NCBI RefSeq assembly: GCF_016772315.1
Contig: NZ_CP053482.1
Location: 1,674,001-1,738,000, forward strand
Direction: 5' to 3'
Origin: Thiothrix subterranea
Lineage (GTDB): Bacteria; Pseudomonadota; Gammaproteobacteria; Thiotrichales; Thiotrichaceae
Length of the DNA stretch: 64,000 nucleotides
Shown here: piece by piece, positions 6,148 to 33,949 of the stretch
How positions within the stretch are numbered: position 1 is the first letter of the stretch
Layout: every line of letters starts with the position of its first letter
Program-made: the position numbers and the translations under genes
Notes under the pieces: generated by a model
What the model saw: the letters and a program-made list of their open reading frames with translations, nothing else
Databases searched by the model: none
Told to the model about the DNA's origin: nothing

Positions 6148-8475
6148 ATGCCGCCCAACGCCAGCCCCCATGCCCCCGTCGCCCTATTCGACCACCCTAA
6201 ATACTGGGCGGAATGCTACGACACCTCGCCGTATCTCCCCATGAGTCGTGCGGAAATGGACGCGCTGGGCTGGGATTCTTGCGACATTATTATCGTCACG
6301 GGCGACGCTTATGTAGACCACCCCTCGTTCGGCATGGCAGTGATCGGGCGGATGCTGGAAGCGCAAGGTTTCCGCGTCGGCATCATTGCGCAACCGGACT
6401 GGCATTCCAAAGACCCGTTCATGGCACTGGGCGCACCCAACCTGTTCTTCGGCGTGGCAGCGGGCAATATGGACTCGATGATCAACCGCTACACCGCCGA
6501 CCGCAAAACGCGCTCTGACGACGTTTACACCCCCGGCGGCATGGCAGGCAAACGCCCCGACCGCGCCACGCTGGTGTACACGCACCGCTGCCGCGAAGCC
6601 TACCCCGACGTGCCGATCATTATCGGCGGGATCGAAGCCTCGTTGCGGCGCATTGCGCACTTCGATTACTGGCAGGAAAAAGTCCGCACCTCGATCCTGC
6701 TGGATGCCGCCGCCGACCTATTGCTATACGGCAATGCCGAACGCGCCGTGGTCGAAGTCGCGCACCGCATCGCTTCCGGCGAACCCGTTTCCCAAATCAC
6801 CGACGTGCGCGGCACCGCCTTCGTGCGCCGCGACACCCCGCAGGGCTGGATGGAAATCGACTCCAGTCGCATCGACCAACCGGGCAAAATCGACCGCATT
6901 ATCAACCCCTACCTCAACACCACCGAGATGAGTGAATGCGAAGTCGAAAAGCGCAATGTGCAATGGTTTGAATACGAAGACCCGCGCAGCAAACGCCCCG
7001 ACGAACACAAGCTGATCTTCCATCCCCGCGCCCGTTTAGACCGCGACACCACCGTTATCCGCTTGCCGTCTTACGAAAAAGTCAGCAAAGACAAAGCCTT
7101 GTATGCCCACGCCAACCGCGTGCTGCACTTGGAAACCAACCCCGGCAACGCCCGCGCTTTGGTGCAAAAACACGGCAATATTGACGTGTGGCTGAATCCG
7201 CCACCGATTCCGCTAACCACGCCGGAAATGGATTTCGTGTTCGGGCTACCCTACGCACGCTTGCCGCACCCGTCCTATAACGGCGTAAAAATCCCCGCCT
7301 ATGACATGATCCGTTTCTCGGTGAATATCATGCGCGGTTGCTTTGGTGGCTGCACCTTCTGTTCGATTACCGAACACGAAGGGCGCATTATCCAAAGCCG
7401 TTCCAAAGAATCCATCATCCGCGAAGTTGAGGAAATCCGCGACAAAGTGCCGGGATTTACCGGGGTGATTTCCGACCTTGGCGGCCCCACCGCGAATATG
7501 TACCGCCTTGCCTGCAAAGACCCGAAGATCGAAGCCGCGTGCCGCAAACCCGCCTGCGTCTACCCCGATGTGTGCCACAACCTCAATACCGACCACGCTG
7601 CCTTGAAGGAATTGTACCGCGAAGCGCGTACCCTGCCCGGTATCAAGAAAATCCTAATCGGTTCAGGGGTGCGCTATGACCTTGCCATCAAAGACCCCGA
7701 ATACGTCAAAGAATTGGTGACGCACCACGTCGGCGGCTATTTAAAAATCGCACCGGAACACACCGAGTCCGGCCCCCTGTCCAAAATGATGAAACCGGGC
7801 ATCGGCGCGTATGACGAATTCAAACGCCTGTTCGAGAAATACACCAAGGAAGCAGGCAAAGAACAATATTTGATCCCGTATTTCATCGCCGCCCACCCCG
7901 GCACGTCCGACGAAGACATGCTCAACCTCGCGCTGTGGCTGAAGAAAAACGGCTTCCGCGCCGACCAAGTGCAAGCGTTTTACCCCTCACCGATGGCATC
8001 CGCCACCACCATGTACCACACCGACAAAAACCCGCTGCACAAAGTCACTTACAAGAGCGAAAAGGTCGCCACCGCCAAATCACCGGAACAGCGCAAGCTG
8101 CACAAAGCCTTTTTGCGCTGGCACGACCCGAAGAACTGGCCGCTGCTGCGCAAAGCGATGGCGGAGATGGGGCGGCAGGAACTGATTGGCGATGGCGAAA
8201 ATCAGTTGATCCCGCATTACAAAGCGGGTGAGGAACAGTTGGTGTATGAGGCGCATCGGCGCAAGAATAAGGGCGGGGAGCATCAGAAGCGGGTGGGGAA
8301 GCCTGTGGTGAATGCCAAGCCTGCTGCTGCCAAACCAGCATCTACCAAACCGAATGCGGGTAAGCCGCAGGGGGGGAAGGTGTTGACGCAGCATACGGGG
8401 TTGCCGCCGAAGCCCAAGGCTGATTTAAGTGGACGAAAATCAACTACCAATGGGGCAAAACGGCGCGGCAAGTAA
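6148..8475 (+). CDS. ygiQ: YgiQ family radical SAM protein, complete copy
   Basis: This is the only full-length copy of four, 775 residues. It has an N-terminal B12-binding-like region (residues about 1-330), then the radical SAM cluster motif CFGGCTFC (CX3CX2C) near residue 397, then a C-terminal DUF3362-type region. The tail of about 60 residues is rich in Lys/Ala/Pro and varies between the copies. YgiQ is widely conserved but its reaction is unknown. The segment 6415-8048 is base-for-base identical to 31907-33540 in the fourth copy, while the flanks differ, a sign of recent gene conversion or duplication. The gene marks the left end of a repeated ygiQ/cargo structure extending to 33949. 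Confidence 0.95.
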
Positions 8476-8477
8476 CA

Positions 8478-10466
8478 TCACCTTAATAACAAGTTGCGCT
8501 TATTTTTTGGGAATAATTCCATGTTTTTATTTCCCGCCCTAAAACATCCATGAGTCAGCAAAATAAAGAGTGCAACAATATAAAATAAATCAAATGCCCC
8601 GCCGCCACCAAGCTGATTAGGGTCATTAACGGTAATATCCCCCATATTTCCATCAGAATTATCGGGGGGAATGGACGGCTGATAGTTCTTTGCCAAATTG
8701 ATGGCAGCTTCCGCATTAACTAAGCCATACCCACTATCAAAGTCAAAACCTGTGGATAAGGTGTTTTTAGCTTTGTTGTTTATCTGGATTATATCAATAG
8801 CCGTTTCATTAAGAATGTGTTTTATATCGACAGGTTGCAATGCTGGTTTAATTTGCAAGAGTAAGGCGGCAATGCCTGCAACGTGGGGAGCCGCGGCTGA
8901 TGTGCCAGCAATATTAGGGAAACCATTATTGTCTGTATCTTGCCTGCCAAAAAAAGTAGTATCCACATCATCTGGCGCGGTAATATCAGGTTTATTGTTG
9001 GCAACGGGAGTGTTTAACCGTTTGCCGTTAATATCAAACCGTATTGAGCCACCACCCGCCGAAGAATAATACTCAACTAATGCTGGAAATTGACCATACT
9101 TAGGCGTATTCATATAATTGCTTGCTCCCACCGTGATAACGGAAGCAGAATCAGCATGACCAAAAATCCCGCTGCTATTGGTGGCATATTCACCAATTAT
9201 GCCATCAATACTGTTTAATATGATGTATTTCATTAACTGAGGTGAAGCCCCAGATGCCTTGGTAATGACAATATCAAATTCTGTCTCACCTGACCCCATA
9301 TCATTGAAAAAGTACAAGTCTTCAATAGGGTCTTTGCCGATATTATCAAAGGTTGATGAGGCAAGGATTCGGGTGTGGTTTTTGTTGAAAATAAAAATAT
9401 CCAGATCACTCTGTGAACCGGGCGAACCACTGATGGAATAGGCGGGAGAATCCCATTGCAGCATGAGATTAAAACCCACGCCTTCAGGAACGGTGATGCG
9501 TTGATAAATGTCGCTGCTGCCATCTGGCGCAAAATTATGGGCATTCAATTTTAACACCTTATTGGTGTATTCGTGATAAGCACTTTGGTAAGCATTGCGC
9601 CCTTCATTACCCGCTGCGGTCACATAAACAACCCCTGCCTTCACTGCTTTTTGGGTGGCTTGGGTTACGGCATCCTCTTGGAAAAAGTTGGCGGAGATTG
9701 CCTTGAAATCATCTACAATAATATCGGCCTTATAATCGGACACCATTTTCAGAATAGCATTCGCAGTGGTGGCAGTGCCATTCTCGCCACTATGGAATAA
9801 CAGCTTTGCACCCGGCGCAATATCATGCACAATTTGCATCAATGCCCTACCTTCGTCTGTTCTCCCGGTGCAATCAAGCGTATCTGCCATAATAATTACT
9901 TGAGGAGGTAAATCTTGAGTGCTTTGGTCTTGTGTAGCCCCGCCAAGGCAATTATAACTATCGGAAATAACCCCTACGGTTATGCCACTACCATCAACCC
10001 CAAAAGCGGGACGGGCAATACTGGATTCTGTGGCTATATCACCTTGGGTAGTAATGCTTCCTTGTGAAGTTATTATTTTGCTTAACTTGACCTCATTCGC
10101 ATCCTCAAGGGCATCCAATTCACCTAACCGTTGAGTAGGCATTTGACCTGAAATAATCCTGCCATTAACTGCCAATGGCTTCATCCCATGCTGGATGAGT
10201 AGCGTTAGCAAGGCTTGGGGATCGCCTTTAGCGATGACATCAATAATTACTGCATGGTTTGCCTCTGATAATGAGGATTGCCGTTCAGCATGATTTGTTA
10301 ATGACAATAATTCATGCCTGATTTTGCTTTGCTTGTCAGTAAGCGTTTTTTGTCTGATCAATGTCGCTGCATTAACATCATCAGCCATAGCACTTTCAGA
10401 AAAGAGTGCCAAACCACCTAATGTAGCCATAGCTATCACCAGAAAATAATTCAACTTATTCTTCAT
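8478..10466 (-). CDS. Secreted subtilase-fold serine peptidase with Gly-rich C-terminal sorting tail
   Basis: This 662-residue protein has a Sec signal peptide (cleavage near SAMA|DD). The peptidase S8/S53-like fold shows the Asp region GVISDSYN near residue 167, the acidic segment DEGRALMQIVHDIAPGA, the oxyanion region AAGNEGRN and the nucleophile loop GTSAAAPHVAG near residue 520. The usual subtilisin His-Gly-Thr block is not evident, as in S53-like subtilases that use Glu. The C-terminus (GGGGAFDLFYIVALFILL followed by basic residues) looks like a GlyGly-CTERM-type membrane sorting tail. It overlaps the C39 gene by four bases, so it is the last gene of a coupled three-gene operon. It may trim the exported peptides encoded nearby; that is inference. 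Confidence 0.85.
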   Translation of the reverse strand: MKNKLNYFLVIAMATLGGLALFSESAMADDVNAATLIRQKTLTDKQSKIRHELLSLTNHAERQSSLSEANHAVIIDVIAKGDPQALLTLLIQHGMKPLAVNGRIISGQMPTQRLGELDALEDANEVKLSKIITSQGSITTQGDIATESSIARPAFGVDGSGITVGVISDSYNCLGGATQDQSTQDLPPQVIIMADTLDCTGRTDEGRALMQIVHDIAPGAKLLFHSGENGTATTANAILKMVSDYKADIIVDDFKAISANFFQEDAVTQATQKAVKAGVVYVTAAGNEGRNAYQSAYHEYTNKVLKLNAHNFAPDGSSDIYQRITVPEGVGFNLMLQWDSPAYSISGSPGSQSDLDIFIFNKNHTRILASSTFDNIGKDPIEDLYFFNDMGSGETEFDIVITKASGASPQLMKYIILNSIDGIIGEYATNSSGIFGHADSASVITVGASNYMNTPKYGQFPALVEYYSSAGGGSIRFDINGKRLNTPVANNKPDITAPDDVDTTFFGRQDTDNNGFPNIAGTSAAAPHVAGIAALLLQIKPALQPVDIKHILNETAIDIIQINNKAKNTLSTGFDFDSGYGLVNAEAAINLAKNYQPSIPPDNSDGNMGDITVNDPNQLGGGGAFDLFYIVALFILLTHGCFRAGNKNMELFPKNKRNLLLR

Positions 10467-11161
10467 TCCACAACCATTTTTGTTGCTGATGCGGCAGGTT
10501 TTAATGCTGAGGCGCGGATCAATTCCATTTCGTTTCTGAATTTAGGCGATAACATGACTGCCAAAGGGTGTTGTGCGGGTGTGCCAAACCCTTTTTTACC
10601 CAAGATAAATGTTTCGCCTTTCCATTCTTCTAAAAACTCATCCACCGTTAAAATCATGTTGCCACGGCTTGGGTCTGCCAGAAATACCCGGTCTTCCCTG
10701 ACACCACGGAACACCGCGAAATGTTGGTAATCCTTGGTGCTGACATAGACAACAACAGGCCCCGCCAACTCTTTTAATGCGGATAACTGCAAACGTACAC
10801 TGGCTGATTGATAACCCAATGAATGGCTTATCTTTTCCAGTTCAAGGAAGGACAAGCCGTGCTCTTCCACAACGGCATATTCTTTGACTGTTAAGGTTTT
10901 CTTGATGTAATCGAGCAGTGACTTTTCAGTGACATCATCCTGAAAGTAATATTTCATGACAGTTGCTAACGCTGCCGCACCACAGGAGTAGTCGTATTGC
11001 TGCATGACCACACTTTGATCATTAAGCTCTTTCCAGCTTTTAAAATGGTCGCCAGAGGCATTAACGGCATAGCCCATATTGCTAACGATGGGTTCGACCG
11101 TACAAGCACTCAAGAAAATAGCCAATAGGATGGGGAGATTGTGCCGCACTTTATAAATCAT
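10463..11161 (-). CDS. Periplasmic C39-family cysteine peptidase lipoprotein
   Basis: This 232-residue protein has a lipoprotein signal (lipobox LSAC near residue 19), so it is likely membrane-tethered in the periplasm. It carries the C39 triad: Cys in QYDYSCGAAALATVMKYY (about residue 59), His in YQHFAVFRGV (about 146) and Asp in FLADPSRG (about 161). C39 peptidases cleave after double-glycine leaders. Here the domain is free rather than fused to an ABC transporter, as with FapD in functional-amyloid systems. It is coupled by ATGA overlaps to a beta-barrel gene and the subtilase. Plausible substrates are the GG-leader peptides at 15205-15498 and 12178-12474. Confidence 0.88.
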   Translation of the reverse strand: MIYKVRHNLPILLAIFLSACTVEPIVSNMGYAVNASGDHFKSWKELNDQSVVMQQYDYSCGAAALATVMKYYFQDDVTEKSLLDYIKKTLTVKEYAVVEEHGLSFLELEKISHSLGYQSASVRLQLSALKELAGPVVVYVSTKDYQHFAVFRGVREDRVFLADPSRGNMILTVDEFLEEWKGETFILGKKGFGTPAQHPLAVMLSPKFRNEMELIRASALKPAASATKMVVE

Positions 11162-12075
11162 TGGACATTACGGATAAGCGTTAGCCCCATGCCAACATCG
11201 CTTGCGTCATTGGTCAGACCAACATCAAAGCTGGTTTCAAGGCGGGTTTTATCATCTAGCCGATAATCCACTGTTCCACCCAGTGAAATAGGCTCAGAAC
11301 TTGACCCATTTAACGCCGTTCCACCGTATTTTGTTTCTGTCTGGTATTGCCCTGAGATTCTGCCTGACATACTGATGGAGCGGTTGACGGCAAGACCTGA
11401 ACCTATGCTGTAGGTGAGTGCTTTTCCCGGTTGGGTGCGAATACCGTCCTGATCATCTGCAAAGGTATGGTTATAACCAACATTTAAAAATACAACGGCA
11501 GGATCTATGGATTTGGATACGCCCATACCTACGGAAGCTGTCTTGAAGTTTGAACCTATGGGCAATTCGGTTGAATCATTGGACGTTGATCTTTTATCTA
11601 TCGGAAAACTAAGGTTTGCAGAAGCGGTTATTGATGGGGAGGTGCTTGATTCAGCTTTCAGCTTGTGCATTGCCCCGACAGAAACATTTCCAACGCCTGA
11701 ACCATTGCTGCTGACGACACTGTTAATGGTTGCCGTTTCGGATTTATTTTGGATTAGCGCAATTGAAGCATTGACTTCAGTGTCTTGGGTTACACCATAG
11801 CCAATACTGAGTGGAATGGAAAAAGACCTGACTTTCCTTTTTCTGAAGTTGATTTGGTTCTCATCTGTGCTGTAATTGAAACCCAATGAAATGTACATAT
11901 CTTTAGGCTTAAGGAGTATTTCAGATTCGCGCAGGAATAGCAGGTGGCTTTTGGCATTCTTATTTTTCTTGCCTATGGTTGATGATTCTAAACCATCTTC
12001 AGCAGATACCGACATAACATCAAAGGCAATGGCTAAAAAAATGAAGAACTTTAAGCAATTTCTAAAAGAAAGCAT
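11158..12075 (-). CDS. Outer-membrane beta-barrel protein (transporter-like)
   Basis: This protein of about 305 residues has an N-terminal signal peptide (ending near SVSA|ED). The body is built of alternating polar/apolar strands (SFSIPLSIGYGVTQDTEVNASIAL, TASVGMGVSKSIDPAVVFLNVGYNH) and no long hydrophobic helices, which is typical of an outer-membrane beta-barrel. ATG 12075 is preferred to the TTG at 12081. It is the first gene of the barrel-C39-subtilase operon. By analogy with Fap-like systems, where a barrel (FapF) and a C39 peptidase (FapD) serve a secreted substrate, it may be the export pore. No direct sequence identity to FapF is claimed. Confidence 0.7.
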   Translation of the reverse strand: MLSFRNCLKFFIFLAIAFDVMSVSAEDGLESSTIGKKNKNAKSHLLFLRESEILLKPKDMYISLGFNYSTDENQINFRKRKVRSFSIPLSIGYGVTQDTEVNASIALIQNKSETATINSVVSSNGSGVGNVSVGAMHKLKAESSTSPSITASANLSFPIDKRSTSNDSTELPIGSNFKTASVGMGVSKSIDPAVVFLNVGYNHTFADDQDGIRTQPGKALTYSIGSGLAVNRSISMSGRISGQYQTETKYGGTALNGSSSEPISLGGTVDYRLDDKTRLETSFDVGLTNDASDVGMGLTLIRNVQ

Positions 12076-13061: not shown

Positions 13062-13187
13062 TCAGTTTTGACAAACAAATATCTGGACAGAATCTTGGGA
13101 AACTGAGTTTCGTATGTCTGGAGTATCCGCATAACTAGTGGCAGAAGATAAAAGCAATAATGCAACAACACTTGAAGCAAATTTCAT
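13062..13187 (-). pseudogene. Truncated secreted peptide precursor (41 codons)
   Basis: This short frame has the same AAGGTAAAACTCC upstream sequence and the same signal peptide and leader as the 15205-15498 gene (MKFASSVVALLLLSSATSYA then DTPDIRNSVSQDSVQ). It then diverges into IFVCQN and stops before any core. It is the broken twin of the downstream peptide gene, produced by a duplication whose 3' part was lost. The signal and leader could still be made and exported, so a residual role is not excluded. Confidence 0.65.
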
Positions 13188-15498: not shown

Positions 15499-15621
15499 AA
15501 GGTAAAACTCCTTTATTGATTGAGATATGTTGATAAGAAATCACTAGCCCATCTATAAGCGATTAATCTTGTCGCGTATACATATGTAGCACACCTTAAC
15601 TGATTATCGAGAAAAGGTCTC

Positions 15622-15737: not shown

Positions 15738-15745
15738 TACAGGAT

Positions 15746-21953: not shown

Positions 21954-23484
21954 CCTCAACACCACCGAGATGAGCGAATGCGAAGTCGAAAAACGCAATG
22001 TGCAATGGTTTGAATACGAAGACCCGCGCAGCAAACGCCCCGACGAACACAAGCTGATCTTCCACCCCCGCGCCCGTTTAGATCGCGACACCACCGTGAT
22101 CCGCCTGCCGTCTTACGAAAAAGTCAGCAAAGACAAAGCCTTGTACGCCCACGCCAACCGCGTGCTGCACTTGGAAACCAACCCCGGCAACGCCCGCGCC
22201 TTGGTGCAAAAACACGGCAACATCGACGTGTGGCTGAACCCGCCACCGATTCCGCTGACCACGCCGGAAATGGATTTCGTGTTCGGGCTGCCCTACGCTC
22301 GCTTGCCACACCCGTCCTATAACGGCGTAAAAATCCCCGCGTATGACATGATCCGTTTCTCGGTGAATATCATGCGCGGCTGCTTTGGCGGCTGCACCTT
22401 CTGTTCGATTACCGAACACGAAGGGCGCATTATCCAAAGCCGTTCCAAAGAATCCATCATCCGCGAAGTCGAGGAAATCCGCGACAAAGTGCCGGGATTT
22501 ACCGGGGTAATTTCCGACCTTGGCGGCCCCACCGCGAATATGTACCGCCTCGCCTGCAAAGACCCGAAGATAGAAGCCGCGTGCCGCAAACCCGCGTGCG
22601 TTTACCCCGATGTGTGCCACAACCTCAACACCGACCACGCCGCCTTGAAGGAATTGTACCGCGAAGCGCGTACCTTGCCCGGTATCAAAAAAATCCTGAT
22701 CGGTTCAGGGGTGCGCTATGATCTTGCCATCAAAGATCCCGAATACGTCAAAGAATTGGTGACGCACCACGTCGGCGGCTATTTAAAAATCGCGCCGGAA
22801 CACACCGAGTCCGGTCCCCTGTCCAAAATGATGAAACCGGGCATTGGCGCGTATGATGAATTCAAACGCCTGTTCGAGAAATACACCAAGGAAGCAGGCA
22901 AAGAACAATATTTGATCCCGTATTTCATCGCCGCCCACCCCGGCACGTCCGACGAAGACATGCTCAACCTCGCGCTGTGGCTGAAGAAAAACGGCTTCCG
23001 CGCTGACCAAGTGCAAGCGTTTTACCCCTCACCGATGGCATCCGCCACCACCATGTACCACACCGACAAAAACCCGCTGCACAAAGTTACCTACAAAAGC
23101 GAAAAGGTCGCCACCGCAAAATCACCGGAACAGCGCAAACTGCACAAAGCGTTTTTGCGCTGGCACGACCCCAAGAACTGGCCGTTGCTGCGCAAAGCGA
23201 TGGCGGAGATGGGGCGGCAGGAACTGATTGGCGATGGCGAAAACCAGTTGATCCCGCATTACAAGGCGGGTGAGGAACAGTTGGTGTATGAGGCGCATCG
23301 GCGGAAGAATAAGGGCGGGGAGCATCAAAAGCGGGTGGGGAAGCCTGCGCAAACGGCAGCGAGTAAACCGAATGCGAAGCCGCAGGGTGGGAAGGTATTG
23401 ACGCAGCATACGGGGTTGCCGCCGAAGCCACAAAATACACCCAATAAATCCACGCCGCCGCACAGCAAACGGCGTAGCAAGTAA
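21954..23484 (+). pseudogene. ygiQ fragment 2 (C-terminal 504 codons plus)
   Basis: Homology to ygiQ begins at CTCAACACCACCGAG (codon about 257 of the full gene) and runs to the normal stop with no frameshift. The open frame from Met 21970 is 504 residues and includes the whole radical SAM core (CFGGCTFC). The protein is essentially identical to the full copy until the Lys/Pro-rich tail, which is different (ends [12 protein letters not shown]), whereas many synonymous bases differ. It therefore came from a diverged ygiQ, not a simple local duplication. Whether the truncated protein is made is unknown; it lacks the N-terminal B12-binding-like half. Confidence 0.9.
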
Positions 23485-23486
23485 GC

Positions 23487-24224
23487 CTATCGGCTCGTGC
23501 GTGGTGCTGCATTTCTCAAAAACATATCACCCCCAACAATATACTTCTCGAAATAATCGGTATTGTCGGGGTTAGCCCCATAAGCACTGCCAAAATCCGT
23601 CAGTGTCAATTTGGGGACATTCAGCATCTTTGCATCCTGTGTACCTTCGCAGGGCGGTTTTGGCTCGTAGTCACAACGACCTGCATCCTGCTTACGGTAA
23701 ACATGGTTGGCAAGGTCAAACATAAAGGTACTGCCACGGGTGCTTGAACCGTACCCGAAGCTGTATTCCTGCAACACAAACTCACCGTTGATGAAGCGGA
23801 AGCGGTAACTGTTTTGGTTATCGCTGCCTCCCATTGGGGTGTACTTGTTGTTGGTGATGCGCAAATCGCCGCTATCGGTGAGCATTGCCGACATGAGCCA
23901 CGGTATTTCACCACTAGGGTCAAAGCTGCTGGTTGCCACCCGCTGGAATGTTCCACTGGGCTGACTCAGGTGAACACTGAAACTGCCGCTTGTCACCCAA
24001 TCCGGCACACCGTCGCGGTTGAAATCGTAACCAAAGGCAAACTTTGCATTGGTAGGGGAGATATTGAGGGATTGGGGCGGGTTGCCTTTGATCGGTTTTT
24101 GTCCGGTTAATGCGGCGGTTGAGGTGTCTGCCTTTATCGGCGTGCTGGCATTGCAGCCTGTCAACAACACCAAGCTGACAATCAAACTCAGCGTAGAAAT
24201 TCCCCGTGAACAGATGTCTTGCAT
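23487..24224 (-). CDS. Lipoprotein with FG-GAP-like motif, unknown function
   Basis: This 245-residue protein has a lipoprotein signal (LVLLTGCNAS; Cys near residue 24). The stretch FAFGYDFNRDGVPDWVTSG resembles a single calcium-binding FG-GAP/VCBS-type loop (DxNxDGxxD). The rest is beta-rich with no recognised domain. The stop lies three bases from the convergent ygiQ copy 2. The base composition is closer to the core genes than the AT-rich cargo. It is the first gene of the second inter-ygiQ block, and no partner is evident. Confidence 0.7.
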   Translation of the reverse strand: MQDICSRGISTLSLIVSLVLLTGCNASTPIKADTSTAALTGQKPIKGNPPQSLNISPTNAKFAFGYDFNRDGVPDWVTSGSFSVHLSQPSGTFQRVATSSFDPSGEIPWLMSAMLTDSGDLRITNNKYTPMGGSDNQNSYRFRFINGEFVLQEYSFGYGSSTRGSTFMFDLANHVYRKQDAGRCDYEPKPPCEGTQDAKMLNVPKLTLTDFGSAYGANPDNTDYFEKYIVGGDMFLRNAAPRTSR

Positions 24225-24405
24225 TCAATAGCTCCTTATTTACACTGTAATGTTAATTTAGTACGAATTTAGTAATGTTACATTTTCTTCATAAAATTGA
24301 CTTGAAAAAAAACCCCTCAATGGTCTATAGTGACTGACCAACGGATGTCCAACACCCTTGAAACATCATCGGGCAACCACACAATAACGACCAAAGGAGC
24401 AGATT

Positions 24406-24582
24406 ATGGTTGACGAAACCATCAGAACGCATACTTCTTACGCACATTGCGCCCGTATGTTGAAAAAGGCAAATGAAGACTTGCAGAATGTTAAAAAATA
24501 CCTTGACCCAGCATCGCCCAACAATTATGAAACTTATCTTAACAATCTGAGAAAACTCAAGGCTTCATCCACACCCCTGTAG
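24406..24582 (+). pseudogene. N-terminal piece of frameshifted beta-helix protein
   Basis: This 58-codon frame has a good ribosome site (AAAGGAGCAG) and starts MVDETIRTHTSYAHCARML. It ends shortly after NNLRKLK. Switching frame near 24560 gives GFIHTPVGIDAKIATAETQL..., which runs without a stop into the large ORF at 24657. The two pieces therefore probably were one gene, broken by a one- or two-base indel. Alternatively the short frame is a real small protein. Confidence 0.6.
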
Positions 24583-24656
24583 GTATTGATGCCAAGATCG
24601 CCACGGCTGAAACCCAACTCGCCACTTTCAAACAAACAGAGCTGGATGCCCGCGCC

Positions 24657-26243
24657 TTGGTTGGTAAATATCTGCCTCAGTTACAAGCCTTGGAGAGCAG
24701 CGAAAATTTCTGGGAAGCCCCAGCAGGTAAATACGACGAATACATGTACATCCTTGAGGAGGAAACCTGTACCTCTACCCGCACCAATTGGCAAACCGTT
24801 GCCGCAGCCTGTCAGTCGGGCAAGTGGGGAATGCCGTTACCCGCCCTGCCAGCAGGTGAACCGACCTTCACTTTTTCCAATCGTGCCATCAGCTACACCG
24901 GAGTCAAACAAACTGATGCGGTGCGTATCTGGAATCACAATGTCACGTTGAATAACCTACAAATCACCGATCCACGCAGCTACACTGAAGCCCATCGTGA
25001 CGGTATCCAGCTTATTCCTCCGCCTAAATACGAGGACAAAATAGGTACGGATGGCAAAACGACCAAAATTAAATTGGCTGACCAGATGGTAGGCACAATT
25101 CTCGAAAACCCAACGGTCAACCAATGCAAAGTCCACGCACCAACGGGGCCGTTACAGGGCATATTCATGAGCGATGGTTTATGCCGCAATGCCACTATCA
25201 CTAACAATGATATTACCATACAAGGCGCACATGCCATTTCGTTGGCGGGTGTCTTGTCCGGCAACATCACGGGGAACACCCTGCATGAAGTGGCTGTGCC
25301 TGAGCCTATTCCGCCAGCCAAGAAGCAAGCCCAATTACCACCCCGCATCCGTCTATTCCCGCTGCGAATTGGCGGCAACATGGCAGATGATGGCGTGGTC
25401 TGTATTTTTAGCTTTGCCGCAGGCAACAGCGTCAGCTATGGGAATGTGGTAGATAGCGGTAATAAGGTCATCCGGTTGGGTGGTGGCGTTGAAGCCATAA
25501 AGGTGGAGGACTTGCGCAAAGAACTGCCACTAGAGTTTAGCAAAATGGGCGTTGGCTTGACCGACTTTAACTACGACGGGTATTTTGAGGCATGTAGCCG
25601 TTGGACGTTGCGGGATTTCATTAGCAGGGACAAGTGGGGGTATGACCAGATGGTGGCGTGGGTCAATTTGCGTTATCAGGAATATTCCAGTGGGCAACGG
25701 ATACCACCTGATAGCCCGTTGCCTGCTCCTAGCCCTGAACAGCAAGACCCCAAAGCGTTTGGTGTACGGGATATGTTGTTAAAGGCAAAAACGGCTTTGC
25801 AAGGTAATGCTGCCGTCTTTCTCGACACTAGGTTGGCAGACTTGCAGGAAACCGCCATACGCAGCTTTACGATGAAGCGTATTGCCATCAAGCACGGTAA
25901 GGTTGTGCCGTTGTATGACCTTGGCGGATACAATGCGCGGCGTGAGGCAATGCTCAAATGGCTGGTCGAGTCGGGGGATTTGGCGAATCTTGTGCCCAAC
26001 CCGAATCCTGAGACAGGTGGGCAAGGTTCAACGGGTGTGATTAACGTGGTGATTACGGACATTGACACCCAGCAGCCTGTTGCAGGGGAAAAATACATCC
26101 TGACACTGGATACTGATCCTACCAAAAACTATTCCGGCACAACGGGGGCTGACGGCAGTGTTTCAATGAAAGATGTGCCAATGGGCAGCTACACATTACG
26201 CTTCGACGACCCAACCATTGTTATTACCACCCAAACCCCATAA
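24657..26243 (+). CDS. Beta-helix protein with C-terminal Ig-like domain (5' end broken)
   Basis: The open frame is about 528 residues from a TTG, extendable upstream to about 24583. The central part (VRIWNHNVTLNNLQITD, NATITNNDITIQGAHAISLAG, NITGNTLHEV) has the short repeating strands of a right-handed parallel beta-helix. A helical region follows (CSRWTLRDFISRDKWGYDQMVAWV), then a C-terminal segment with INVVITDIDTQQPVAGEKYILT...GADGSVSMKDVPMGSYTLRF, which looks like a carboxypeptidase-regulatory/Ig-like domain. It has no signal peptide, as with type VI-secreted proteins. The next gene is DUF6402-like, consistent with an effector module. The natural N-terminus is encoded at 24406-24582. Confidence 0.65.
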   Translation: MVGKYLPQLQALESSENFWEAPAGKYDEYMYILEEETCTSTRTNWQTVAAACQSGKWGMPLPALPAGEPTFTFSNRAISYTGVKQTDAVRIWNHNVTLNNLQITDPRSYTEAHRDGIQLIPPPKYEDKIGTDGKTTKIKLADQMVGTILENPTVNQCKVHAPTGPLQGIFMSDGLCRNATITNNDITIQGAHAISLAGVLSGNITGNTLHEVAVPEPIPPAKKQAQLPPRIRLFPLRIGGNMADDGVVCIFSFAAGNSVSYGNVVDSGNKVIRLGGGVEAIKVEDLRKELPLEFSKMGVGLTDFNYDGYFEACSRWTLRDFISRDKWGYDQMVAWVNLRYQEYSSGQRIPPDSPLPAPSPEQQDPKAFGVRDMLLKAKTALQGNAAVFLDTRLADLQETAIRSFTMKRIAIKHGKVVPLYDLGGYNARREAMLKWLVESGDLANLVPNPNPETGGQGSTGVINVVITDIDTQQPVAGEKYILTLDTDPTKNYSGTTGADGSVSMKDVPMGSYTLRFDDPTIVITTQTP

Positions 26244-26257
26244 GCAAGGAAACCATC

Positions 26258-27391
26258 ATGGCGTTACTAACAGAAAATAATGGATCATCCTGTACAGTGG
26301 ATTGCGTATCTGCTAACCAACAGGTTGGTAGTCCCCAACAGGTTTGGATAAAAAAAATCCCTGACCTTGATACGATGTGGCATGGAACACCTATCCGCTG
26401 GGTCATGATGGAAGCGGCGGGTAAGAACTACAATGTTCCCGTTTATGACATTCAAGTTTATGGAGAAGGTCTTGCCTCTTCCACCAATGGATATGACATG
26501 ATCGCCCTTGACCATCCCGGCGCACAAGCATATTTGGTGGCGGTCAATCCTTCAAAACCAATGCGCCTTAATGAAATTCCTGATGCAATGGATAAAATGG
26601 GTTGGAAAATTGCAGCGCAAACCATGCGCCATTGGTTTTCAATAAAACCTGCATGGCCAACGCCACCTGATGACATGCCAATTCTGATTAAAACGGGGGA
26701 AATTGATTCATTAACACTAAAGTCTAGTCAGTACAATGACCAAATCATCAAAATGGATTGGGTATTGCAGTTTCCAAGAGTTGTGGATGCTTTTGAAGAT
26801 CTTTACAACAATTGGATGTCTGATGCGGGAAAAGCTGAGCTTAAAAAACAACTCTTGAAAGCAGGTTGGCAACCGAATAGTTCTGCCCCATTTAGATTGG
26901 GACAGAATATTAGTACAGCACGGGAACTAAATTCTATTTGTCAAGTTAATTTTCGCGGCTTTGGAAGCAAATTAGACACATTAGATGATCTTTATGGTGC
27001 ATTGGGAATTGCCAATTTTTATCTAGCAGTTACTGGTTCAGTCCTATGGTCTTCAGCAACATCTGCCGCCTTTGATGTTGAACGAATCGGCATTTATGTA
27101 AAAGATACATTTGACTTTAACAGTGGCATGTTTGAAAAAATTGTTCCGCTTGGCATTTGGAATCACGAGCGTTGCTTGTCCAAAATTGAATCAATTGACT
27201 ATGCTGCTACTCCAGTAATTCTACCAATGCCATCCCCCGTTACAAGAAGCTTGAAATACCCTGGTTTTATTCCTATCTACAATCGTCATTTTAGGGACTG
27301 GCAGGCAACAACAGGTACAGGTGGAGATTTCGTCGTTTACTCTGATGTTATGTGGATGCCCGTAAATGTTGCACCGGTACAATTACCATGA
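26258..27391 (+). CDS. DUF6402-like protein, putative secreted effector component
   Basis: This 377-residue soluble protein has no signal peptide. The C-terminal third contains ERIGIYVKDTFDFNSG and LGIWNHERC, which I associate with DUF6402, a domain found with type VI secretion/PAAR or Rhs-type toxin loci. No catalytic motif is recognised. It starts 14 bp after the beta-helix gene, and its stop overlaps the start of a small membrane protein (ATGA), the usual layout of an effector and its immunity protein. The assignment to DUF6402 is from memory of motif style and should be tested against Pfam. Confidence 0.6.
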   Translation: MALLTENNGSSCTVDCVSANQQVGSPQQVWIKKIPDLDTMWHGTPIRWVMMEAAGKNYNVPVYDIQVYGEGLASSTNGYDMIALDHPGAQAYLVAVNPSKPMRLNEIPDAMDKMGWKIAAQTMRHWFSIKPAWPTPPDDMPILIKTGEIDSLTLKSSQYNDQIIKMDWVLQFPRVVDAFEDLYNNWMSDAGKAELKKQLLKAGWQPNSSAPFRLGQNISTARELNSICQVNFRGFGSKLDTLDDLYGALGIANFYLAVTGSVLWSSATSAAFDVERIGIYVKDTFDFNSGMFEKIVPLGIWNHERCLSKIESIDYAATPVILPMPSPVTRSLKYPGFIPIYNRHFRDWQATTGTGGDFVVYSDVMWMPVNVAPVQLP

Positions 27392-27807
27392 CCACATGGT
27401 TTTACCAACACAGATCTATATTATTTTTTTTAATGGCGACCTTTTTGTTTATAATATTATCTATGTCATTGTGGCAAAATGGAGGACGATGGTTATCATC
27501 ATATGGAATGGAAAAAATTAGTCCTAAAGGTTATTACCGCCTAGTTACCCGAATACATCCTATAGATGAATATGGTTACGTATATTTGTATAATAACCAG
27601 ACAAATGAACTGCTTGCCACAAGTGAGGAGTATATGATAGCCGATAATTCACGGGTTACTTGGGTAAGTGAGTGTCAAGGAAAACCCTCTATAGATGTAG
27701 GAATGAATATATGTTTCCAGATTACGCCAGAGCCAGCGCAACCTTGCTGTAAAGCAGGGCAAGCCATGATTCCGCTACAAGCAAAAGCTATTTATATAAA
27801 AAATTGA
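27388..27807 (+). CDS. Small membrane-anchored protein, candidate immunity protein
   Basis: This 139-residue protein starts at [10 protein letters not shown] (ATGA overlap with the DUF6402-like stop). One N-terminal transmembrane helix ([19 protein letters not shown]) is followed by a periplasmic domain of about 105 residues with four cysteines (including QPCCKAG). Translational coupling to a putative effector and a one-helix periplasmic layout fit an immunity protein against a periplasm-acting toxin. Homology is not recognised. The gene is AT-rich, and its stop codon abuts the joint with ygiQ copy 3. Confidence 0.6.
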
Positions 27808-27812
27808 TAACA

Positions 27813-29648
27813 GGCGGCATCGAAGCCTCGTTGCGGCGCATTGCACACTTCGATTACTGGCAGGAAAAAGTCCGCACCTCGATCCTGCTGGATGCCGCCG
27901 CTGACCTGTTGCTGTACGGCAATGCCGAACGCGCCGTGGTCGAAGTCGCGCACCGCCTTGCCTCCGGCGAACCCGTTTCCAGCATCACCGACGTGCGCGG
28001 CACCGCCTTCATCCGCCGCGACACCCCGCAGGGCTGGATGGAAATAGACTCCAGCCGTATCGACCAACCAGGCAAAATCGACCGCATTATCAACCCCTAC
28101 CTCAACACCACCGAGATGAGCGAATGCGAAGTCGAAAAGCGCAACGTGCAATGGTTTGAATACGAAGACCCGCGCAGCAAACGCCCCGACGAACACAAAC
28201 TGATCTTCCACCCCCGCGCCCGTTTAGACCGCGACACCACCGTGATCCGCCTGCCGTCTTACGAAAAAGTCAGCAAAGACAAAGCCTTGTACGCCCACGC
28301 CAACCGCGTGCTGCATTTGGAAACCAACCCCGGCAATGCCCGCGCCTTGGTGCAAAAACACGGCAATATTGACGTGTGGCTGAACCCGCCCCCGATTCCG
28401 CTGACCACGCCGGAAATGGATTTCGTGTTCGGGCTGCCCTACGCTCGCTTGCCGCACCCGTCCTATAACGGCGCGAAAATCCCTGCCTATGACATGATCC
28501 GTTTCTCGGTGAATATCATGCGCGGCTGCTTTGGTGGCTGCACCTTCTGTTCGATTACCGAACACGAAGGGCGCATTATCCAAAGCCGTTCCAAAGAATC
28601 CATCATTCGCGAAGTCGAGGAAATCCGCGACAAAGTGCCGGGATTTACCGGGGTGATTTCCGACCTTGGCGGCCCCACCGCGAATATGTACCGCCTCGCC
28701 TGCAAAGACCCGAAGATCGAAGCCGCGTGCCGCAAACCCGCGTGCGTTTACCCCGACGTGTGCCACAACCTCAATACCGACCACGCCGCCTTGAAGGAAT
28801 TGTACCGCGAAGCGCGTACCTTACCCGGTATCAAGAAAATCCTGATTGGTTCAGGGGTGCGCTATGACCTTGCCATCAAAGACCCCGAATACGTCAAAGA
28901 ATTGGTGACGCACCACGTCGGCGGCTATTTAAAAATTGCGCCGGAACACACCGAGTCCGGCCCCCTGTCCAAAATGATGAAACCGGGCATCGGCGCGTAT
29001 GACGAATTCAAACTCCTGTTCGAGAAATACACCAAGGAAGCGGGCAAAGAACAATATTTGATCCCGTATTTCATCGCCGCCCACCCCGGCACGTCCGACG
29101 AAGACATGCTCAACCTCGCGCTGTGGCTGAAGAAAAACGGCTTCCGCGCCGACCAAGTGCAAGCGTTTTACCCCTCACCGATGGCATCCGCCACCACCAT
29201 GTACCACACCGACAAAAACCCGCTGCACAAAGTCACTTACAAAAGCGAAAAAGTCGCCACCGCAAAATCACCGGAACAGCGCAAGCTGCACAAAGCATTT
29301 TTGCGCTGGCACGACCCGAAAAACTGGCCGCTGCTGCGTAAGGCGATAGTGGAGATGGGGCGGCAGGAACTGATTGGCGATGGCGAGAACCAGTTGATCC
29401 CGCATTACAAGGCGGGCGAGGAACAGTTGGTGTATGAGGCGCATCGGCGCAAGAATAAGGGTGGGGAGCATCAGAAGCGGGTGGGGAAGCCGAATGCGGC
29501 TGCAATGGCGGGTAAGCCGAATGCGGGGAAGCCGCAGGGTGGGAAGGTGTTGACGCAGCATACGGGGTTGCCGCCGAAGGCGCGAGCGGATGGGCAGAAG
29601 TCAAATGCAACCAAAGCAAAACGACATCGTAAAGATAATTTCACATGA
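27813..29648 (+). pseudogene. ygiQ fragment 3 (C-terminal ~612 codons)
   Basis: Homology to ygiQ starts abruptly at GGCGGCATCGAAGCC (codon about 155), six bases after the stop of the preceding gene, and runs in frame to a stop at 29648. The radical SAM motif is intact. It has a few private amino acid changes (NGAKI, FKLLF, AIVEMG) and its own tail (ends [11 protein letters not shown]). The open frame from TTG 27804 reads 614 residues. Its nucleotide pattern is a mosaic of synonymous differences relative to the other copies. It is interpreted as a displaced 3' part of an earlier resident ygiQ. Confidence 0.9.
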
Positions 29649-29675
29649 CGTGATGAAAAACGTTGACAAGTCATT

Positions 29676-29728
29676 AAAAAAAAAAAAAGACTGTGTTTAA
29701 TTTCTTATTAGACAAGAAATTAAACACA
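29676..29728. terminator. A13 tract plus 15-bp perfect inverted repeat
   Basis: Thirteen consecutive A residues (29676-29688) precede a perfect 15-bp inverted repeat TGTGTTTAATTTCTT/AAGAAATTAAACACA (29692-29728, 7-base loop). Read leftward this is a hairpin followed by a T run, the form of an intrinsic terminator. Read rightward it sits in the promoter region of the amidase-like gene. No leftward gene is present, so it may be a relic or an operator. Confidence 0.6.
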
Positions 29729-29758
29729 TCTTACGCTTGACACAACGGGGGTTCTATC

Positions 29759-30538
29759 ATGCTGGCTTTTTCTGCTTCTTCACACAACCATATTATCAAA
29801 AAGTGCTTATTGACCTTGCTTCCACTTGGATTTTGCTATATAGCCCCCGCTCATGCGGAGAGTTATACGGCAACAACTGCAAAAAGTTATGCAACCTCAC
29901 ATTACAGTAAATCTTACGGAACAGGAACATCACAGAATCCTTTTCCTAATGTTTCAGATGTTGGAGGTAATTGTACTAATTTTGGGAATCAAGTTATCAG
30001 TTCAGGTTTATTATCCAAAACAACACCAAAGTCTCTCAATGACGCACTAGTTAAAGATAAAAAGTTTCCCAGCTCTACCAGAAAAGAGTGGTTTTTTGGA
30101 TGTAATTCAGTAGGCAATACATGTCAAAGCCCATCTTGGCGTGGAGCACAATCAATGTTTGTTTTTTCCCGTGATCAATCCAATGGAAAAGCTCTTAGGA
30201 TGGCGCAGGTCACAAAAACAGCACTTGTTAATGGAAAACTGACACCACTTGATCACACGAAAGTTAAAGTGGGAGATATTATTTTTGCTGATTTTAATTT
30301 CAGTACTGTTTTCTACGGCAATGATGTAGACCACACAATGATCGTTACTGAAGTAAAACCTTTGAGTTGGTGGAATATAATTCAAAAGTCAAAATATAAT
30401 GCAATTAGATTAACCTATCAAACATCAAACAGTACTGATAGAGGTTTGGGTGACATTTGGTCAGAGAATAGTGGGTATTTTTGGTGGTCACCAGAACCTG
30501 CATTCTATGTGTATCGTCCTAGCGAATATCGCAGATGA
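29759..30538 (+). CDS. Secreted amidase-like (Amidase_6-type) protein
   Basis: This 259-residue protein has a signal peptide (ending near PAHA|ES). The mature N-terminus SYATSHYSKSYGTGTSQNPF then VGGNCTNFGNQVISSG resembles the putative amidase domain Amidase_6 (YA..Y....N..F..F...GGDCTNFVSQ), a papain-like/CHAP-related fold with catalytic Cys in NCTNF. A His in VDHTMIVTEV (about residue 190) is the likely partner. An enzyme of this type could act on peptidoglycan or peptides in the periplasm or outside. It is AT-rich cargo between ygiQ copies 3 and 4, followed by a membrane-anchored protein on the same strand. Confidence 0.7.
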   Translation: MLAFSASSHNHIIKKCLLTLLPLGFCYIAPAHAESYTATTAKSYATSHYSKSYGTGTSQNPFPNVSDVGGNCTNFGNQVISSGLLSKTTPKSLNDALVKDKKFPSSTRKEWFFGCNSVGNTCQSPSWRGAQSMFVFSRDQSNGKALRMAQVTKTALVNGKLTPLDHTKVKVGDIIFADFNFSTVFYGNDVDHTMIVTEVKPLSWWNIIQKSKYNAIRLTYQTSNSTDRGLGDIWSENSGYFWWSPEPAFYVYRPSEYRR

Positions 30539-30649
30539 AAAATAATGTGGAAGTTACTTGTAATGTCAGGTTTCTATTTTCTAATGAAGTGAGTGACTTC
30601 CACTTTAGTAATTAACAGTTAATTGTTCAATTGTTTCAGGAGTAAATTC

Positions 30650-31786
30650 ATGATTTTTTTAAAGAAGCACTTCATTCTATTGATTGCTTTAGTCATTAGT
30701 TTTGTCAGTGGTTCATTGTTTTTATTATACCCAAAAAATTCCCCAGACATTCTTGGTAAATCAGATGGTTCACAAAATACCTCTAATGACCAAAACAATG
30801 AAAAGCCATCATTTCAATCGCAAGAAGTCATTTCCACCAACAAAAAAAATCAATATGAATCTCATAATGAAATAAAATCTTATGATGATAAGAAAATAGC
30901 AGAATGGACTGCAAAAGTTAGACAGTGGGTAAGCGAATTTCCATTCCCTCAGGAAACCACTCGTTCTATCCTCGGTGCAAATCCAGATGATGTACAACAA
31001 GCTTTACAGGCATTCAATCAACGACTACAGGATGAGATTGTTAATAACAATTTTCTATCAAAAAATGAAAAAGATCATATTTTATGGGACATATACACTA
31101 ACACTACATGGTTAGGGAATAACAACGCTCTACAGGCAATTGTTCAAGATAATTTGGCGAGCATGACTCCGTTTGGCTTGACCGACGAAATTCGTGCCAC
31201 CTATCAAACATGGGCATCGAATGGAAATAAGACGTTAGAAAGTCGCCATGATTTGTTGGAAATAGTTGATGGCATACTAAATGTAGACAATAATACGCTT
31301 GATAACGCAGCTAAACAACAATATGTTAAAAGTATCCCATCAGCTAAAGAATTACTACTAGATCAAATCAGAATGACTAACGAGAGTGATGAGGCACAAA
31401 ACCTAACAGGTTTTGCTATCGACTTATACGCATCTCATGCTACTTCGAATGAAATGGAAGAACTGTCATCTACAATACAAGCAATATCTGCATCTAACCC
31501 AGCAAATTCCCTACAACTCTATCATTCAACATTGAAAAATCTTCTTTCTCAATCTAAGAGTTCCGATCAAGCTACTCGTTTAATATTAGCTTCTCCCTCA
31601 CCGGATTTAAATCAATCACTCACATTCTTGTTAAAAGAAGATGGTAATATTGCACTTGCTGACATACCACCGACCACACGAACCGAATTGTTGACTTATC
31701 TTCAGTCACAAGAAAATTCCATTCGTGGTACAGATATAGAACCCGATTGGAAACTTTCGATCAATCGCTTGCAAACCGGAAAATAA
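30650..31786 (+). CDS. Membrane-anchored helical protein, unknown
   Basis: This 378-residue protein starts at MIFLKKHF with a CAGGAG ribosome site. One N-terminal transmembrane helix (FILLIALVISFVSGSLFLLY) is followed by a low-complexity Asn/Gln/Lys linker and a mainly helical periplasmic domain of about 300 residues. No family is recognised. It lies about 110 bp downstream of the amidase-like gene in the same direction, so an effector/immunity or enzyme/inhibitor pair is conceivable. Its stop is 22 bases before the joint with ygiQ copy 4. Confidence 0.6.
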   Translation: MIFLKKHFILLIALVISFVSGSLFLLYPKNSPDILGKSDGSQNTSNDQNNEKPSFQSQEVISTNKKNQYESHNEIKSYDDKKIAEWTAKVRQWVSEFPFPQETTRSILGANPDDVQQALQAFNQRLQDEIVNNNFLSKNEKDHILWDIYTNTTWLGNNNALQAIVQDNLASMTPFGLTDEIRATYQTWASNGNKTLESRHDLLEIVDGILNVDNNTLDNAAKQQYVKSIPSAKELLLDQIRMTNESDEAQNLTGFAIDLYASHATSNEMEELSSTIQAISASNPANSLQLYHSTLKNLLSQSKSSDQATRLILASPSPDLNQSLTFLLKEDGNIALADIPPTTRTELLTYLQSQENSIRGTDIEPDWKLSINRLQTGK

Positions 31787-31808
31787 CTCACGCGCTTATC
31801 ACCGTTCA

Positions 31809-33949
31809 ACCACCCCTCGTTCGGCATGGCAGTCATCGGGCGGATGTTGGAAGCGCAAGGTTTTCGCGTCGGCATCATTGCGCAACCCGATTGGCATTCC
31901 AAAGAGCCGTTCATGGCACTGGGCGCACCCAACCTGTTCTTCGGCGTGGCAGCGGGCAATATGGACTCGATGATCAACCGCTACACCGCCGACCGCAAAA
32001 CGCGCTCTGACGACGTTTACACCCCCGGCGGCATGGCAGGCAAACGCCCCGACCGCGCCACGCTGGTGTACACGCACCGCTGCCGCGAAGCCTACCCCGA
32101 CGTGCCGATCATTATCGGCGGGATCGAAGCCTCGTTGCGGCGCATTGCGCACTTCGATTACTGGCAGGAAAAAGTCCGCACCTCGATCCTGCTGGATGCC
32201 GCCGCCGACCTATTGCTATACGGCAATGCCGAACGCGCCGTGGTCGAAGTCGCGCACCGCATCGCTTCCGGCGAACCCGTTTCCCAAATCACCGACGTGC
32301 GCGGCACCGCCTTCGTGCGCCGCGACACCCCGCAGGGCTGGATGGAAATCGACTCCAGTCGCATCGACCAACCGGGCAAAATCGACCGCATTATCAACCC
32401 CTACCTCAACACCACCGAGATGAGTGAATGCGAAGTCGAAAAGCGCAATGTGCAATGGTTTGAATACGAAGACCCGCGCAGCAAACGCCCCGACGAACAC
32501 AAGCTGATCTTCCATCCCCGCGCCCGTTTAGACCGCGACACCACCGTTATCCGCTTGCCGTCTTACGAAAAAGTCAGCAAAGACAAAGCCTTGTATGCCC
32601 ACGCCAACCGCGTGCTGCACTTGGAAACCAACCCCGGCAACGCCCGCGCTTTGGTGCAAAAACACGGCAATATTGACGTGTGGCTGAATCCGCCACCGAT
32701 TCCGCTAACCACGCCGGAAATGGATTTCGTGTTCGGGCTACCCTACGCACGCTTGCCGCACCCGTCCTATAACGGCGTAAAAATCCCCGCCTATGACATG
32801 ATCCGTTTCTCGGTGAATATCATGCGCGGTTGCTTTGGTGGCTGCACCTTCTGTTCGATTACCGAACACGAAGGGCGCATTATCCAAAGCCGTTCCAAAG
32901 AATCCATCATCCGCGAAGTTGAGGAAATCCGCGACAAAGTGCCGGGATTTACCGGGGTGATTTCCGACCTTGGCGGCCCCACCGCGAATATGTACCGCCT
33001 TGCCTGCAAAGACCCGAAGATCGAAGCCGCGTGCCGCAAACCCGCCTGCGTCTACCCCGATGTGTGCCACAACCTCAATACCGACCACGCTGCCTTGAAG
33101 GAATTGTACCGCGAAGCGCGTACCCTGCCCGGTATCAAGAAAATCCTAATCGGTTCAGGGGTGCGCTATGACCTTGCCATCAAAGACCCCGAATACGTCA
33201 AAGAATTGGTGACGCACCACGTCGGCGGCTATTTAAAAATCGCACCGGAACACACCGAGTCCGGCCCCCTGTCCAAAATGATGAAACCGGGCATCGGCGC
33301 GTATGACGAATTCAAACGCCTGTTCGAGAAATACACCAAGGAAGCAGGCAAAGAACAATATTTGATCCCGTATTTCATCGCCGCCCACCCCGGCACGTCC
33401 GACGAAGACATGCTCAACCTCGCGCTGTGGCTGAAGAAAAACGGCTTCCGCGCCGACCAAGTGCAAGCGTTTTACCCCTCACCGATGGCATCCGCCACCA
33501 CCATGTACCACACCGACAAAAACCCGCTGCACAAAGTCACCTACAAAAGCGAAAAAGTAGCCACCGCCAAATCACCGGAACAGCGCAAGCTGCACAAAGC
33601 GTTCTTGCGCTGGCACGACCCCAAGAACTGGCCGCTGCTGCGCAAAGCGATGGCAGAGATGGGGCGGCAGGAACTGATTGGCGATGGGGAGAACCAGTTG
33701 ATCCCGCATTACAAGGCAGGTGAGGAACAGTTGGTGTATGAGGCACATCGGCGCAAGAATAAGGGCGGGGAGCATCAGAAGCGGGTGGGGAAGCCTGTGG
33801 TGAATGCCAAGCCTGCTGCCGCCAAACCGAATGCGGGTAAGCCGCAGGGTGGGAAAATGTTGACGCAGCATACGGGGTTGCCGCCGAAGGCGCGGGCGGA
33901 TTTTGGCGGTAAGCCGAGACCGACCAACAAATCCAAGCGAGGACGGTAA
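31809..33949 (+). pseudogene. ygiQ fragment 4 (C-terminal 707 codons plus)
   Basis: ygiQ homology starts at ACCACCCCTCG (codon about 57) and continues in frame to the stop at 33949; the open frame from Met 31826 is 707 residues. The first 100 bases differ from copy 1 at about 8 sites, then 31907-33540 is identical to 6415-8048 over 1634 bases, after which differences resume. The tail ([12 protein letters not shown]) is distinct. It lacks only the first 57 codons. It is probably the oldest displaced piece, perhaps the remains of the original chromosomal gene. Confidence 0.92.

Follow-up and report, generated by a model that had tools for sequence, protein, structure and literature searches.

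A probable integrase-free, homology-anchored cassette array at ygiQ in Thiothrix subterranea, with similar arrays at mfd and rtcB

How does a housekeeping gene come to be followed by three shortened copies of itself, with unrelated genes in between? This question is raised by ygiQ in Thiothrix subterranea, in a 64,000-nucleotide (nt) stretch of contig NZ_CP053482.1 (C1:1674001-1738000 of our genome G000, which has four contigs and 4.08 Mb) that we call the window. On the sequence level, the layout of the array, mosaic boundaries within its copies, junctions shared between genomes, pairs of genomes resembling before and after states, and recurrence at three genes all point the same way: the array is probably an integrase-free, homology-anchored cassette array. 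Our comparison set was 16 Thiothrix genomes, G000 to G015 (G011 matched T. lacustris DSM 21227, G012 T. caldifontis and G007 T. fructosivorans), with 47 further genomes of the order.

Layout and spread of the ygiQ array

As the original prediction stated, one intact ygiQ is followed by three 5'-truncated copies on the same strand; their starts, put there at codons of about 257, 155 and 57, lie at codons of about 255, 159 and 57. We name each copy by the gene nt at which the truncated piece begins (copy170, copy396 and so on). The elements of the array, including open reading frames (ORFs) and restriction-modification (R-M) genes, are given below in window coordinates.

6148..8475, + strand: intact ygiQ, first array element, 775 amino acids (aa); Pfam Radical_SAM_N, Radical_SAM and DUF3362
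6415..8048, + strand: part of the intact ygiQ (gene nt 268-1901) that matches 31907-33540 in the farthest copy at 100%
8476..12005, - strand: cargo; S8 peptidase, C39 peptidase and Phenol_MetA_deg protein (Pfam), behind the intact ygiQ in G009 too, at 91.4% DNA identity
12178..21815: cargo; DDE_3 transposase (13504-14541), Sel1 protein, LuxR-type regulator (15710-16489), DsbD and thioredoxin-like proteins, NadA and EamA transporter (Pfam)
21954..23484, + strand: ygiQ 3' copy from gene nt 765 (codon ~255), with its own tail
23487..27807: cargo; lipoprotein-like ORF (- strand, by eye), 528-aa protein, DUF6402 protein and 151-aa ORF
27813..29648, + strand: ygiQ 3' copy from gene nt 478 (codon ~159); junction and preceding cargo also in G014
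29759..31786, + strand: cargo; Amidase_6 protein (Pfam) and 387-aa ORF without a Pfam match
31809..33949, + strand: ygiQ 3' copy from gene nt 170 (codon ~57), the farthest copy; with the R-M unit, collinear with the intact ygiQ and R-M genes of G012
34009..35708: Type II R-M unit 1; HNH endonuclease (+ strand) and C5 cytosine methylase (- strand)
37196..37210, + strand: 15-bp ygiQ relic holding the 3'-terminal codons and stop, ahead of R-M unit 2
37283..38967: R-M unit 2; HNH endonuclease and C5 methylase, 78% DNA identity to unit 1
39057..39272, + strand: array end; short conserved reading frame, VapB-type-antitoxin-like by eye only, shared with G003, G007, G009 and G012

Over 1.5-2.1 kb, copies 765, 478 and 170 match the intact gene at 94.5, 94.6 and 97.9% identity, too closely for a chance resemblance. 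The cargo between them is unrelated, as claimed. Alignment of their ends bears out the claim that each copy keeps a normal stop with its own tail: the last codons of all four copies diverge after a common conserved 10-residue block, each with its own stop. The 3' tail class of the intact gene, a 17-residue tail, is also found on the intact gene of G009. No integrase was present among the 30 window ORFs scanned with Pfam (some shorter ORFs lay outside the scan), in keeping with the prediction, and the DDE_3 transposase is the only mobile-element gene among them. Among 20 scanned cargo ORFs of other arrays and loci, a subset of all cargo, there was likewise no tyrosine or serine integrase. A 321-bp direct repeat (84%; window 13083-13400 and 15394-15712) flanks the transposase and Sel1 genes. 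A conserved 216-bp "element" at the array end, considered as a candidate, resolved into a short reading frame, and collinearity between G000 and G009 resumes from 39057..39272 onward.

Extra ygiQ pieces occur in nine of the 16 Thiothrix genomes (G000, G002, G003, G004, G007, G009, G013, G014 and G015), as a search of ygiQ neighbourhoods in related genomes revealed; no ygiQ array was seen in the 47 other genomes of the order, 37 of which had a ygiQ match. We counted 19 truncated pieces, with pieces 404 and 786 of G013 taken as one copy that a transposase gene interrupts. Only small remnants are left in the case of the G004 piece and the third piece of G002. Eighteen pieces share the strand of the intact gene and follow it downstream, and the remaining one, in G014, is on a different contig. 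The copies start at many gene positions and most reach the gene end, so there are no fixed short attachment (att) repeats. The proposal that copies lengthen with distance from the intact gene holds in G000 and fails as a general rule, as the copies of G003 (174, 663, 1694), G015 (396, 1708) and G009 (792, 1711) show.

Three side observations concern these other arrays. In G013 (L129, L130), the transposase gene (IS66-type by eye) sits inside the ygiQ relic with an 8-bp repeat, TGAATGCG. In the G007 cargo (L121:8032-18155), a DrmD-like SNF2 helicase adjoins a 2494-aa sacsin-domain protein with weak TmtA matches, and the two are a possible defence pair. In the G003 array region, a 1312-bp stretch of cargo is duplicated at 97% (L117 local 23051-24362 and 29028-30339), its second copy not adjoining a ygiQ piece.

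Could the array be an error of assembly? Identical repeats of up to 1.6 kb are the kind of sequence that invites one, but the copies differ by 2-6% overall from the intact gene, and a junction at nt ~1700 occurs in the separate assemblies of G002, G003, G009 and G015, three of them single-contig. We find an assembly artefact hardly credible.

Mosaic boundaries, before/after-like pairs and shared junctions

The copies carry mosaic boundaries. Between the intact gene and copy170 of G000, six mismatches at nt 195-267 give way to 1634 identical bases (nt 268-1901) and then to a divergent tail. In G003, the intact gene and copy174 show seven mismatches at nt 192-339 followed by 1547 identical bases (340-1886); copy663 shows seven mismatches to both of them at nt 676-719 and then 766 identical bases (720-1485), so that the G003 set nests as two successive events predict. 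Runs of at least 766 bases were found in four of 35 within-genome pairs of ygiQ copies, the next being 200, and the longest among 668 between-genome pairs was 338. For copies 765 and 478 of G000, the longest stretches identical to the intact gene are 146 and 200 bp.

Exactly this mosaic would result if a donor segment bounded by ygiQ on either side recombined twice with a single resident gene: a donor-like start, a resident middle in duplicate and, on the intact gene, a donor-like tail. Because mismatches stand between each junction and its identical block, we read the recent events as homologous recombination on both sides with a donor in which a truncated copy was already present. Their right arms are homologous, and the first creation of the junctions is the only step that would need non-homologous joining. 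A single crossover with a circular donor is ruled out, as it predicts divergence between donor and resident in the duplicated block and not identity.

The original prediction favored one-sided, homology-facilitated illegitimate recombination at every event. The differing junction positions and the lack of a visible integrase fit this model, and PMC5361080 proposes the same process for arrays in Vibrio cholerae. However, it predicts zero mismatches between the junction and the identical block, where six, seven and seven are observed, and junctions are shared between genomes together with the same cargo. As an account of every event it is quite improbable; for recent events the mismatches beside the junctions contradict it, and illegitimate joining would be needed only when a junction is first created.

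Two pairs of genomes, G011/G015 and G012/G000, look like before and after states at the sequence level. G011 has one ygiQ followed by a vapB-like gene (by eye). Its alignment with G015, at 95.96% over 5764 bp, takes in the upstream flank and the intact genes. In 60-nt windows, the intact G015 gene departs from G011 at nt 1201-1320 (88, 83%) and 1381-1560 (87, 68, 77%). Copy396 of G015 is 97-100% identical to G011 in 13 of 17 windows over nt 661-1680 (the others 90, 93, 95 and 88%), and it matches G011 at nt 1201-1320 and 1441-1560, where the intact gene does not. The 3' end of the intact G015 gene is unlike that of G011 (77 and 45% in the last two windows), while copy1708 matches it (98, 92%) and runs on into the same vapB start, ahead of an insertion. 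The G015 array thus now closes with a 3' end of the G011 type.

For the second pair, G000 31809-37147, comprising copy170 and its R-M genes, is collinear with the intact ygiQ and R-M genes of G012 (94.5% over 5344 bp), and G000 5152-8414 is collinear with the upstream part of G012 (93.2%). Both comparisons reveal a conserved upstream anchor with older 3' material displaced downstream. As in long target duplication, direct repeats surround the insert, and the target is single-copy in G011 and G012 versus repeated in G015 and G000. A tail with its cargo beside an intact ygiQ, which the original prediction proposed to look for in other genomes, was found for R-M genes in G012 and for a PIN-type pair in G006. 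These findings support its central idea of repeated insertion at the 3' part of ygiQ, with the incoming tail and cargo fused to the resident 5' end and the older 3' part displaced. Import is also suggested by G009: identity to G000 is 97.1, 98.6 and 99.1% in three downstream blocks and 95.1% in the upstream block 5138-6039, versus only 92.6% over 6079-12005 (ygiQ and the S8 unit), below the flanks, which we take as import.

Some cargo is tied to ygiQ ends. All six close R-M nucleases in the 16 genomes (at least 84% identity) begin 60-73 bp past a ygiQ stop; the ygiQ before the nuclease is intact in G012 and truncated or a relic in G000 (two), G002, G003 and G014. All five near-full close genes of a 140-aa HNH family, fam7 (at least 80% identity and at least 115 of 140 residues), end directly upstream of a ygiQ piece. 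The R-M association holds for one class of cargo and was not found in the S8, DUF6402 and amidase units, as far as their ORFs were scanned. Junctions are also shared. The nt ~1700 junction follows the same cargo in G002, G003, G009 and G015, and what lies downstream of the piece is of three kinds: R-M genes (G002), a vapB-like start (G009, G015) and other sequence (G003). The nt 478 junction follows the same cargo in two genomes, G000 and G014, which have in common the DUF6402 protein, the 151-aa ORF and the junction itself. A shared junction with differing downstream sequence indicates that the two sides of a ygiQ piece are exchanged separately.

These associations bear on site-specific integration or homing, in which insertion would be driven by a recombinase at the conserved 3' block or by the HNH nucleases adjacent to ygiQ. 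The DNA around the 10-residue block is highly conserved, and HNH genes adjoin ygiQ ends or pieces in every R-M and near-full fam7 case just given. On the other hand, a single att site does not account for long relics whose 5' ends vary, and neither HNH genes nor integrases occur among the ORFs scanned from the S8, DUF6402 and amidase units or in 10 scanned cargo ORFs from mfd and rtcB. Clustering of the junctions into a hotspot was not significant (permutation p 0.053, with nt 786 of G013 dropped beforehand as part of the transposase-split copy). We regard this explanation as very improbable.

Arrays at mfd and rtcB

ygiQ is not special in this respect: mfd (a 1167-aa helicase) and rtcB (a 417-aa protein), both named from their sequence alone, carry such arrays as well. 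A scan of 800 kb of G000 outside the window brought the number of array loci to three in 864 kb in total. The other local repeats in the 800 kb were tandem repeats within one ORF, a HipA-like pair (by eye) and a few short or low-identity pairs.

The G000 mfd array (C1:287465-311523; L174-L175) has three 3' pieces, and its cargo, over 20 kb, is metabolic in part. The intact gene lies at C1:287465-290968 (L174:7465-10968), and the same-strand downstream pieces begin at gene nt 2114, 2227 (internally deleted) and 2221. Seven of the 16 genomes have close mfd pieces; those of G000, G002, G005, G009, G013 and G015 are on the strand of the gene and downstream of it. Among the 47 other genomes of the order (39 matched), one, G071, had an mfd piece at a cutoff of 1e-80, which misses short pieces.

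Three of the 16 genomes have rtcB arrays: G000 (gene at C1:1600034-1601287, L154:6034-7287; piece at 1587804-1588282, L153:13802-14326), G005 (L192) and G007 (L190, L191). Three of the G007 pieces start at nt 747, each preceded by the same 50 bp, and one G007 piece retains its 5' end and is internally deleted. An rtcB tail and its downstream sequence are common to G007 and G000, and likewise to G007 and G005. The scanned cargo at mfd and rtcB includes kinase, vWA and AAA proteins, DUF2357, rubredoxin reductase, a permease and aminotransferases. The G000 rtcB array lies between two genes that look HipA-like by eye and have 79% DNA identity to each other, at L153:8889-10199 and L154:7791-9086.

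Mechanism, its weight and known systems

We propose that a unit opens with the 3' end of a core gene and its own tail, continues with cargo and closes where a 5'-truncated piece of that gene begins. DNA with such a segment would enter a related cell, and RecA-type homologous recombination at ygiQ on both sides would insert it; the entry route, the dependence on RecA and the identity of the donor are what we infer here. By the left crossover, the resident 5' part would gain a new 3' end and cargo. By the right crossover, the incoming truncated piece would join the resident 3' part, which would shift downstream and take its old cargo along. Whatever resident sequence lay between the two crossovers would be duplicated, leaving an intact gene and a relic. 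New junctions would be rare and probably arise via illegitimate joining, and selection for a whole first copy would yield a mostly one-way layout. The same process is proposed at mfd and rtcB.

Could simple local tandem duplication have made the array? The case against it is that tails and cargo differ between copies, that junctions are shared between genomes, and that before/after-like pairs exist. The tree of shared codons, which had been suggested as a check, was not decisive: among the G000 copies only the intact gene and copy170 pair, and an approximately unbiased (AU) test over nt 800-2150 does not reject a clade of all four (p 0.359). In trees of separate regions, which we count with the evidence of import, G011 and G015 fall outside an 11-row group with G000-like species at nt 100-760 (98% by the Shimodaira-Hasegawa-like approximate likelihood ratio test, SH-aLRT), and their copies nest within a 22-row group with such species at nt 1740-2150 (97%).

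Several observations, the AU result among them, weigh against the proposed two-sided insertion. Identity at fourfold (synonymous) sites has no simple rise toward the 3' end and lends no support to a sign of tail exchange. The intact G015 gene is again G011-like at nt 1561-1680 and 1861-2160 (94-100%), so the G011/G015 pair needs more than one exchange. No donor carrying the whole G000 array was found among the 16 genomes. In G003, the mfd pieces lie more than 400 kb away on the other strand, departing from the one-way layout; the same genome (L193) has no close intact rtcB, its sole close copy being internally deleted, with a small opposite-strand piece ~10 kb off. A 27-residue fam7 fragment in G003 is not beside ygiQ but 4.9 kb past the last piece, in the duplicated cargo stretch. 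All 16 Thiothrix genomes have ComEC, but 10 of 14 control genomes, among them E. coli, have it too, so its presence does not show competence.

The main rival is intragenomic gene conversion, which could also give identical blocks. The cargo would have been captured long ago, with gene conversion or unequal crossing-over within one chromosome homogenising parts of ygiQ. The identical blocks begin 57-166 bp from the junction and end before the tail, like heterology-bounded tracts, and the unrejected G000 clade agrees with such an origin. Yet in G000 only the farthest copy is identical, copies 765 and 478 sharing just the short runs given above; divergence between G000 and G009 over ygiQ and the S8 unit exceeds that of the flanks; and G011/G015 and G012/G000 resemble before and after states. 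We hold gene conversion to be unlikely and prefer insertion of cassettes by homologous recombination.

Searches for a vehicle covered several sources. Two Neisseria-type DNA uptake 10-mers had no match in the window. Plasmid-borne ygiQ came to 31 records, all at 60-80% identity and with no Thiothrix among the organisms listed. Phage-borne ygiQ came to 17 records (six at 60-80%, 11 below), with one IMG/VR contig at 72%.

A wider claim, for which we see the case as evenly balanced, is that Thiothrix and at least one sister genus have a genome-wide, integrase-free cassette system. Several housekeeping genes would be landing pads (ygiQ, mfd, rtcB and perhaps ten, by extrapolation from a fifth of one genome). 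Their 3' ends would travel with cargo between species by homologous recombination, with gene-specific cargo pools and stacked relics recording the order of acquisition. If so, defence, toxin-antitoxin and metabolic genes would be gained and exchanged as ordered cassettes without a mobile-element enzyme, the housekeeping gene serving as the address. As relics preserve the order of events, gene gain by plain recombination could be ordered in natural genomes. Island-finding tools keyed to integrases or tRNA sites would miss such islands, and the before/after pairs render the mechanism directly testable.

Our searches of open-access papers, by titles and the starts of abstracts, gave no account of ygiQ as a hotspot or of this pattern in Thiothrix. 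The working principle is of the same kind as in two known systems, the V. cholerae arrays and long target duplication in Helicobacter pylori. According to PMC5361080 (Kirchberger et al. 2017), immunity-gene arrays of the V. cholerae type VI secretion system (T6SS) spread by homologous recombination after they have formed. Like the arrays here, they have an upstream homologous anchor, a new module that displaces old 3' material downstream, and no known integrase. Their anchor lies in a secretion-system cluster and their cargo is effector-immunity genes, whereas here the anchor is a housekeeping gene, the relics are long and the cargo is unrelated: R-M, PIN-type, peptidase and transporter genes and unknowns such as DUF6402, with no T6SS effector-immunity pair identified. 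In H. pylori (Nobusato et al. 2000, as cited in PMC1643837, PMC4978471 and PMC3154945), inserts that are often R-M genes likewise lie between direct target repeats. Here, by contrast, the repeats are pieces of one core gene of up to 2.1 kb, in nested arrays with many cargo types and with mosaic boundaries pointing to donor arms on both sides.

Two further systems share part of the pattern. In Rhs and contact-dependent toxins with orphan tips, as cited in PMC5361080, a new 3' end replaces the old and old ends are strung downstream; what is exchanged here is no toxin domain but the short, basic tail of a housekeeping protein. In chromosomal integrons, a comparison also drawn in PMC5361080, the newest cassette stands beside a fixed gene and older ones are pushed away; here, the scanned ORFs include no integrase, and the joining sites are long gene pieces and not attC. 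What is new, as far as our searches show, is that housekeeping genes act as anchors, that the relics are long and nested, that cargo is tied to particular genes, and that the pattern recurs at several genes across the genus.

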